Positions 50,558 through 61,511 of a stretch of DNA of 64,000 nt are shown here, one piece after another. Below the pieces are notes generated by a model. The model worked only from the letters and a program-made list of their open reading frames with translations. It was not told where the DNA came from and searched no databases. Made by a program: the position numbers and the translations under genes. The stretch is taken from the NCBI GenBank assembly GCA_025677825.1, contig JAIXMO010000012.1:620001-684000 (forward strand). Direction: 5' to 3'. Origin of the DNA: Helicostylum pulchrum (Eukaryota; Mucoromycota; Mucoromycetes; Mucorales; Mucoraceae). Each line of letters starts with the position of its first letter. Position 1 is the first letter of the stretch.

Positions 50558-51356
50558 TTATAAAACTACGAAACTCGATATAATAAAGAATCCAAATACA
50601 AGTAAACAAATGATAATCTAAAAAAAAAAGGTACTTAATACATGTACATTTACATTTATTTTTTCATGTACCATGGCTTTTAAAGTTAATGGTTCTACAA
50701 AGCCATTCATTAATTCACCAAATACTTGAGTTGCTATCTTGGATTTTCCTATAAACTGAGGTTGCACATTCCTACATGTAAATTATAGCTGTTAAGTATA
50801 ATAATATTATGCGTGATTGAATTTGTTAGTGAGGTTTTTTTTTTTAAAAAAAAAAAAAGGATATCTGTCCCATTCATCACAAAATGTCTGCCAATAAGTT
50901 CCTTTTAAGTCAGGTCCACAATCGTTACTGACGTAATTATAGTGGCATGTTCGTGTTTTATCTTCAAATTCTGTGCAGAGTGAAATATGAGTGGCACTTT
51001 TTTTTTTGTTTTTTTGTTTTTTTTTTGTTTGGTTACCTCTAAGCTCAGATTCATAACGATCTTGAATCTCTTGCGAACAGGATCGGATCAGTTGATAAAA
51101 GATGAAGAGTATTATTAAAATACCAGTTGCATGTAGGACTAACTTGATGTAGCTATAATAAGGAAACTGTGAAAAGGGGGGTCAAGTTTATTTTTGGTCG
51201 TTGTGAAGGGGTATTTTCTTACGTTGATAATATAATGGGAGCGTCAGGAGAGGCTAAAAACGAAGTATAGTTACTGAACGAGCTTTTTTTTCGTACTTCT
51301 TTTTCAGTTGTATTTTGTATCTTTCTCTTCTTTACTGGACGGTCGTTAGAGGACAT
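50558..51356 (-). CDS. BRL1: Brl1/Brr6-family nuclear-envelope protein, with an AT-AC intron
   Basis: This protein acts in the nuclear envelope and ER, in pore assembly and membrane-lipid balance. Five minus-strand exons give 173 residues: 51356..51223, 51152..51037, 50970..50865, 50777..50672 and 50617..50558. TM1 is at 46-67 (YIKLVLHATGILIILFIFYQ), TM2 is the last 19 residues (IIICLLVFGFFIISSFVVL). The lumenal domain has the four family cysteines: 92 and 101 (TCHYNYVSNDC), 114 (FCDEW) and 120 (DRCRN), then FGELMNGFVEPL. Intron 3 (50864..50778) begins ATATCCTTTT and ends TTAC, with TACTTAAC 13 nt before the end: a U12-type AT-AC intron. Only the AC end restores Cys120. The last intron is 54 nt, and without it TM2 would be missing. 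Brr6 is the paralogous name. Confidence 0.88.
50778..50864 (-). other. U12-type (AT-AC) intron inside BRL1
   Basis: There is no GT near the end of exon 3, and the sequence after GGGACAG is ATATCCTTT, an exact match to the U12 donor consensus. Near the other end TACTTAAC fits the U12 branch site (TTCCTTAAC, seven of nine with the flanking bases), with its adenosine about 13 nt before the terminal AC. An in-frame AG lies 6 nt further and is the only alternative end; it would remove Cys120. The intron is 87 nt long and in phase 2. Confidence 0.85.
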
Positions 51357-59978: not shown

Positions 59979-61511
59979 ATGAATAGTCGACTGCTCAAGT
60001 TTATTTCTATTGCGCTACTTATAGTTAGTATATGCTTTTTATTTAGTTATCTATTAGAATTGGAGCAAAATAACACACTCTTAAAAGAACAAGAAGACCA
60101 TGAAGAACAAATAAAAGAAAAATTAGCTCTTGAAGAAAAAGAAATTCAAAGAGTTGCCAGAATATTAAATAATAGAGCTGTTGTTGAACCTGAATTAACA
60201 CTGGAAAATACAAGAAATTTAAACGATTCTTATTACATTGCTGTACCTACTCGTGCTGAACCTTGGAAACCTGAAACACTTGAATTACTCAACTCACCTA
60301 TTGGTCAAGTAATTCAAGCTGATCTTTTTACTGTCCCTGAATTGTTACCCAGCTTCAAGGCACTAACAACACAAGAAAGACTATTCAAATCTTTATTTCA
60401 ATACTTTGATCCTATTATCGCTGAAGGTGTCATTGATGTCTCAAAACATCAAGACTTTAAAGAAACCTGGTTATTATATACTCGCTTAGAACGTATATTA
60501 TTTCCTTGGATTAGACCCAACTGGAAATCTGCTTTTGATATCAATTTATCTTCTTCAGGCGGTAAAGGTATTGTAATGTGTGTTGGTGATGGTCAATTCA
60601 TGCATGCTTCTACTTCTGTCAAAGCTATTCGTGAATTGTTAAAATCGGATTTACCAATTGAAATATTTTATATCGATGAATACGACTTATCCATTGAAAA
60701 CCGTGATTATTTTGATGCCATACCTAACGTAAAGACAAAATCTATTGATACTTATATTAATAACGCGTATACAAGACTTGGTGGTTGGTCTATTAAACCT
60801 TTTGCTATTTTAGCTAGTAGTTTTGATGAAGTTATGATGATGGATGCCGATGTTTTTATGTTTAATAAGCCTGAAACATTTTTTGAGGATAAAGGATATC
60901 AAAAGACTGGTGCTTTATTCTTTTTGGATCGTACATTATTTGATAACTTTTATGAAGGTAAAAAATGGTTACGATCTTTCTTGCCTACTTATAGTAGCTA
61001 TCTTGAACAATCAAGATGGTGGAAAACTACTTCTGCTCATGAACAAGAATCTGGTGTTGTATTGATGGATAAGCGTAAGGTTTTATTTGGGTTATTAGCT
61101 ACTTGTAAAATGAATGATAAAAATGAAAGAGACAAAGTTTCTTATAAACACTCACATGGTGATAAAGAAACATTTTGGATTGGATTTGAAATGATAGCTA
61201 CACCTTATTCATTTGTCAAGTCCGTTGGAGCTGTTATTGGTGGATTAGGTGATGCAGGTGCAGCAGAAACAGTATGTGGTAATCAACTTCACTTGGATGC
61301 AAATAACAAACCAATGTGGTGGAATGGAGGACTTTTACGTGATAAAAATAAATGGGATGATAGATACATGTCATTTACACATTTTGCTCAAGGTGAAGAT
61401 TGGGAATTTGAAACCTCTTGTGTTAGAGAAACTGATAAAATTACAGAATTAACAAAGTACGAAAGAGGTATTGGTAACAGATTAATAGAAATGGATAAAA
61501 AAAACAAGTAG
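59979..61511 (+). CDS. Alpha-1,3-mannosyltransferase of the MNN1 family (GT71)
   Basis: A single-exon gene of 510 residues, a type II Golgi membrane enzyme that adds alpha-1,3-mannose to glycans of cell-wall proteins. A short cytosolic end is followed by a signal anchor at 7-28 (FISIALLIVSICFLFSYLL), then a charged coiled stem (about 30-65). The catalytic part starts at about 195 with GKGIVMCVGDGQFMHA and SVKAIRELL. It includes EIFYIDEYDLS, the metal-binding DxD in EVMMMDADVFMF (about residue 289), then GALFFLDRTLF, the QESGVVLMDKRK block, KETFWIGFEM and NGGLLRDK near the end. Length and order fit the family. It converges on a GT15 mannosyltransferase gene, with only 15 nt between the stop codons. 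Confidence 0.9.
   Translation: MNSRLLKFISIALLIVSICFLFSYLLELEQNNTLLKEQEDHEEQIKEKLALEEKEIQRVARILNNRAVVEPELTLENTRNLNDSYYIAVPTRAEPWKPETLELLNSPIGQVIQADLFTVPELLPSFKALTTQERLFKSLFQYFDPIIAEGVIDVSKHQDFKETWLLYTRLERILFPWIRPNWKSAFDINLSSSGGKGIVMCVGDGQFMHASTSVKAIRELLKSDLPIEIFYIDEYDLSIENRDYFDAIPNVKTKSIDTYINNAYTRLGGWSIKPFAILASSFDEVMMMDADVFMFNKPETFFEDKGYQKTGALFFLDRTLFDNFYEGKKWLRSFLPTYSSYLEQSRWWKTTSAHEQESGVVLMDKRKVLFGLLATCKMNDKNERDKVSYKHSHGDKETFWIGFEMIATPYSFVKSVGAVIGGLGDAGAAETVCGNQLHLDANNKPMWWNGGLLRDKNKWDDRYMSFTHFAQGEDWEFETSCVRETDKITELTKYERGIGNRLIEMDKKNK

Follow-up and report, generated by a model that had tools for sequence, protein, structure and literature searches.

Minor introns and minor-spliceosome snRNAs of the Mucorales have already been published (PMC2846911, PMC4133162, PMC10639083). 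Bartschat and Samuelsson (PMC2846911) describe both AT-AC and GT-AG U12-type introns, in small numbers per genome, in Rhizopus oryzae and Phycomyces blakesleeanus; for Phycomyces they give 8 or 9 AT-AC and 8 to 12 GT-AG introns by two scoring methods. The counts cited in PMC10639083 are about 4 U12-type introns for Rhizopus and about 20 for Phycomyces. The same source lists 205 minor introns for Rhizophagus irregularis, a fungus for which it reports all four minor snRNAs, and 249 for Basidiobolus meristosporus, and it puts the AT-AC share of minor introns at about 26% in human and 77% in Blastocystis. In the literature library searched, we found no paper on U12 in Thamnidium, and none of the papers listed for the Brl1/Brr6 family, going by titles and the openings of abstracts, concerns a minor intron in this gene.

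Here we describe a Brl1/Brr6-family gene whose third intron (50864-50778, minus strand) is very probably a U12-type AT-AC intron that would be removed by the minor spliceosome. It lies in a 64-kb stretch of DNA, which we call the window. At least 13 further U12-type introns were found in open frames of the same genome. As reported for Rhizopus and Phycomyces, both AT-AC and GT-AG types occur; 10 of the 14 introns here are AT-AC, three are GT-AG and one is AT-AG, compared with the Phycomyces figures above, and here one host gene belongs to the Brl1/Brr6 family. The 14 introns, which do not amount to a full census, seem fewer than the numbers listed for Rhizophagus irregularis and Basidiobolus meristosporus.

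Gene organization and identity

In budding yeast the Brl1/Brr6 family has a role in nuclear pore biogenesis and in spindle-pole-body insertion (PMC8449258). The spliced reading frame in the window (CDS 51356-50558, minus strand) has five exons and a product of 173 aa, Table 1. This product matches PF10104 (Brr6_like_C_C) over residues 44-171 with E 1.4e-28 and 99.7 bits, covering model positions 1-129 of 133, and is 93% identical to a Thamnidium elegans protein. Its Cys92, 101, 114 and 120 align with the homologues as the four conserved cysteines of the Brl1/Brr6 domain, and two membrane segments, judged by eye, flank them. The original prediction had called this a fungal BRL1/BRR6 gene. Membership of the family is supported by the PF10104 match; the assignment is made at family level, not to BRL1 or BRR6, as the genome holds three PF10104 loci at E 1e-3, the gene in the window and two others (L046 and L047).

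Elsewhere in the window, the product of a mannosyltransferase-like ORF (59979-61511) shares 95% identity with an unnamed protein, 91% with a Thamnidium elegans protein, its best match among named ones, and 77% with a Pilaira anomala protein. Taken with the identity of the Brl1/Brr6 protein, these values make a mucoralean species close to Thamnidium elegans the most likely source of the DNA.

Table 1. Exons, introns and intron 3 signals of the Brl1/Brr6-family gene, in window coordinates.
Feature	Coordinates	Strand	Evidence or remark
Exon 1	51223..51356	-	Start codon at 51356; spliced frame and PF10104 match of product
Intron 1, GT-AG, 70 nt	51153..51222	-	Junction in line with homologues
Exon 2	51037..51152	-	Spliced frame
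Intron 2, GT-AG, 66 nt	50971..51036	-	Spliced frame
Exon 3	50865..50970	-	3' end ...GATGAATGGGACAG (DEWDR, phase 2)
Intron 3, AT-AC, predicted U12-type, 87 nt	50778..50864	-	Motifs, protein fit, snRNA pairing, genome profile
Predicted U12-type donor ATATCCTTT	50856..50864	-	More T after donor; pairing possible with U11 5' end AAAAAGGG and U6atac AAAGGA
Predicted branch site TACTTAAC	50791..50798	-	U12 pairing -4.4 kcal/mol, weakest computed among 14 introns
Terminal AC	50778..50779	-	13 nt after TACTTAAC, AC counted in
Exon 4	50672..50777	-	5' end completes codon of Cys120
Intron 4, GT-AG, 54 nt	50618..50671	-	Spliced frame
Exon 5 and stop codon	50558..50617	-	Hydrophobic C-terminal segment; spliced frame and homologue alignment

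Signals and junction of intron 3

Intron 3 opens directly after exon 3 with ATATCCTTT, which agrees with the U12-type donor RTATCCTTT. The branch site of a U12-type intron is expected to be close to TTCCTTAAC and to lie some 10-20 nt from the 3' end. Here ATACTTAAC is found 13 nt before the end; it has a single mismatch to the consensus and is off at one position in pairing with U12. In the 13 sister introns this distance is 10-21 nt. Joining exon 3 to exon 4 after the terminal AC gives a phase 2 junction that reads DEWDR-C-RN, includes Cys120 and restores the protein better than any other of the 76 choices described below. The donor, the branch motif with its spacing and the AC end that keeps the frame and brings in Cys120 had all been proposed in the original prediction, and each was found at the place given for it. 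Its further claim that exon 3 lacks a GT donor is slightly too strong: a GT does exist, with its first intron base at 50880, but using it removes conserved sequence.

If intron 3 is retained, the frame ends after 137 residues, before either the fourth cysteine or the second hydrophobic segment is reached; production of the protein should therefore require correct minor splicing.

We scored the window with a donor, branch and acceptor profile built from the 13 sister introns found elsewhere in the genome. Intron 3 reached 35.0 bits, at exactly the 3' end given in Table 1, and ranked first by 12 bits, the next place in the window scoring 23.1. Among 30 first-order random windows the highest score was 28.4 bits, and 0/30 reached the score of intron 3. 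This test is not fully independent, because the 13 introns were themselves found with patterns requiring TATCCTT(T) and YTTAAC or CCTTAAC; unlike the profile score, the protein fit is independent of the motif tested.

Splice choice tested against homologues

Candidate joins between exons 3 and 4 had to be in frame and free of stops, with GT-AG, GC-AG, AT-AC, AT-AG or GT-AC ends, a donor between 50960 and 50801 and an intron of at least 30 nt, giving 76 choices. Each was scored for protein fit against a profile from six homologues, and the scoring was repeated without the Thamnidium homologue. The AT-AC join 50864/50778 came first at 307.6 bits and the AT-AG join at 50772 second at 292.9 bits; without the Thamnidium homologue the two scored 261.3 and 246.7 bits. 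The W-x-x-C that contains Cys120 is present in 6/6 informative homologues (seven were found, one of which is without the whole stretch), and the paralogues L046 and L047 read TEWENC and RNWEKC here in a single uninterrupted frame, with no intron at this place. The earlier claim that no other splice choice gives this result holds on this scoring.

The second-ranked join is also the strongest alternative: the same donor spliced to the AG 6 nt downstream, which would make an AT-AG U12-type intron and a protein without Cys120 and Arg121. This join stays in frame, its end lies 19 nt from the branch motif, inside the observed range, and another AT-AG intron seems to be present in the genome, in a TBC-domain gene (L054). 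Against this, it is 14.7 bits worse against the homologues and 10 bits worse against PF10104 (89.6 bits, compared with 99.7 for the AC end), and it drops the cysteine found in all six informative homologues and in both paralogues. We regard it as improbable.

Removal by the major spliceosome, either as a U2-type intron with other ends or as a U2-type AT-AC intron, is less probable still. In its favour, the gene's three remaining introns are GT-AG, and the major spliceosome does remove some AT-AC introns. However, W-x-x-C is lost in both of the in-frame GT-AG pairs listed for this junction, the six best of the 76 choices include no GT-AG pair, and intron 3 combines a U12-like branch site with a donor, ATATCCTTT, that is unlike the U2 donor consensus. 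It is equally implausible that the gene is a decayed copy in which the interval is not spliced, with a frame intact across five exons, 93% identity to the Thamnidium elegans protein and a PF10104 fit that covers positions 1-129 of 133.

In the annotated Mucor flavus protein (P0006), sequence from the end of exon 2 runs straight on into exon 4, and all of exon 3 is absent together with the first part of exon 4. Judged from the protein alone, this gap probably reflects a mistaken gene prediction at an AT-AC intron; a predictor that does not allow AT-AC ends would skip in this way.

Candidate minor-spliceosome components in the genome

Rfam models were run on the 32.2-Mb assembly at E 1e-3 and gave one locus each for U11, U12, U4atac and U6atac; the same kind of search of the 64-kb window found nothing. 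U11 (67.3 bits, gathering cut-off 39) and U6atac (58.4 bits, cut-off 33) are over their gathering scores, and the U12 candidate (47.6 bits) and the U4atac candidate (48.2 bits) are under theirs, both 53. The U11/U12 machinery that the original prediction took to follow from the intron is represented by one candidate for each snRNA, two of them below the gathering score. The 25-position U11-48K zinc finger model PF05253 had no match in the genome at E 1e-3.

Both the U11 5' end, AAAAAGGG, and the U6atac stretch AAAGGAGA can pair with the intron 3 donor. Clan competition assigns the U4atac locus to U4 instead, with a score of 41.7 bits that is below the U4 cut-off of 46; its identity as U4atac is favoured because its 5' end gives a duplex of -33.2 kcal/mol with U6atac, the one partner for which this value was computed. 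PMC4133162 describes one U4atac copy in the other basal fungi it compares and none detected in Lichtheimia, from which the genome analysed here differs in having a candidate.

In the U12 candidate (L009, 1606-1501, minus strand), a large share of the Rfam model's 3' part is missing. For Lichtheimia and other basal fungi, PMC4133162 reports an atrophied third stem and a short last stem of U12, together with a divergent second half of U6atac, and the shortened candidate found here agrees with the short last stem given there for all basal fungi. In its branch-pairing stretch the candidate has GUAAGGAU in place of the GUAAGGAA of the Rfam consensus.

Further U12-type introns

Sister introns were accepted by eye from open frames, a judgement applied to a small sample chosen by motif. 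A Pfam match spans the join in 7/13 of them, starts after the join in two and is absent in four. Among the AT-AC introns, the match crosses the join in a prefoldin gene (L087), a gene with an importin-beta N-terminal domain (IBN_N, L088) and an RNB-domain gene (L091), and it begins after the join in genes with an IPK domain (L026) and a CDC24_OB2 domain (L057). Those without a Pfam match are a protein phosphatase methylesterase by our own judgement (L065) and three unnamed genes (L089, L090 and L094). The GT-AG introns lie in genes with a HIT domain (L050), a WAC domain (L093) and a cornichon match (L095), each with the Pfam match running across the join, as it also does in the AT-AG intron of the TBC-domain gene, where it is below its cut-off.

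Most of the set came from the pattern TATCCTTT followed after 50-80 nt by YTTAAC, which has 98 sites in the genome and 35 in a reversed control. The first donor base is not fixed in this pattern, and C or T donors therefore enter as well. Flanks were inspected for 54/98 sites (30 + 11 + 9 + 4), of which 13 were accepted, intron 3 counted in; three of the 30 inspected loci (L064, L078 and L079) were left unplaced. Twelve stretches were selected, largely because their branch sites are strong, and eight of these were accepted (L087-L091 and L093-L095); L092 was rejected for having no open join, and L096-L098 for a first donor base of C or T. None of 16 candidates with weaker or undisplayed branch sites was convincing; in seven of them the first donor base is neither A nor G. 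An AT-AC candidate of 103 nt (L061) has an open frame but no Pfam match and was left out.

Patterns with a shorter gap gave 19 sites against 10 in the reversed control, 8 against 6, 84 against 34 and 14 against 3. The pattern with 8 sites supplied L054, the fourteenth intron, and none of the 14 sites of the last was accepted. We take the short-gap matches to be mostly chance, because the gap from TATCCTTT to YTTAAC in accepted introns is 46 to 68 nt. As none of the 16 weaker candidates was convincing, and with 54 of the 98 long-gap sites and a minority of the 84 short-gap sites inspected, we estimate that the genome total of U12-type introns may be some tens at most, which may be similar to the number cited for Phycomyces.

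Three further observations concern these searches. The FHIT-like gene at L050 (genome C79, near 325872), positions 1320-1635, needs a 5-nt microexon, TGGTC, to keep its frame; this sits between a 73-nt GT-AG intron with a GTATGT donor and the 77-nt U12-type GT-AG intron. A search for a join with one intron starting at the first donor found none that preserves the conserved sequence, and the peptide joined through the microexon matches the HIT domain at 8.5e-9. Genome-wide, ATATCCTTT occurs 1101 times and the reversed pattern 387 times, an excess for which the 10 AT-AC introns and the one AT-AG intron do not account. Among the sites of the long-gap pattern, identical matched strings recur on several contigs in two families, one comprising L064, L067, L069, L070, L076, L078 and L082 and the other L066, L068, L077, L079, L083, L085 and L086, and no intron was accepted in either.

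Discussion

The donor, the branch site and its spacing, the fit to homologous proteins, the candidate snRNAs, four in number, with their computed pairing and the sister introns are all seen in the sequence, and all support the reading of intron 3 as a U12-type AT-AC intron. In the most likely course of splicing, U11 would bind the donor and U12 would bind TACTTAAC, leaving a bulged adenosine to serve as the branch point. U6atac would arrive paired to U4atac and take the place of U11 at the donor, the order of exchange known in general for the minor spliceosome, and 50865 would be joined to 50777, keeping the frame and supplying Cys120.

A wider idea is that in a Thamnidium-like lineage the minor spliceosome drifted towards AT-AC introns while U12 RNA changed together with the branch sites. 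An A stands opposite the changed U12 base in 8/14 introns, intron 3 among them. This excess has a value of about 0.06 in a binomial test at 33% A, and the co-change is therefore only suggestive; we consider the idea as a whole unlikely.

Intron 3 opens no new class of biology. It does offer one clean example where gene prediction limited to GT-AG introns should fail, and the Mucor flavus annotation skips the same stretch. The introns found with it add an AT-AC-rich minor-intron set from a fungus near Thamnidium, in which a member of the Brl1/Brr6 family would depend on minor splicing.
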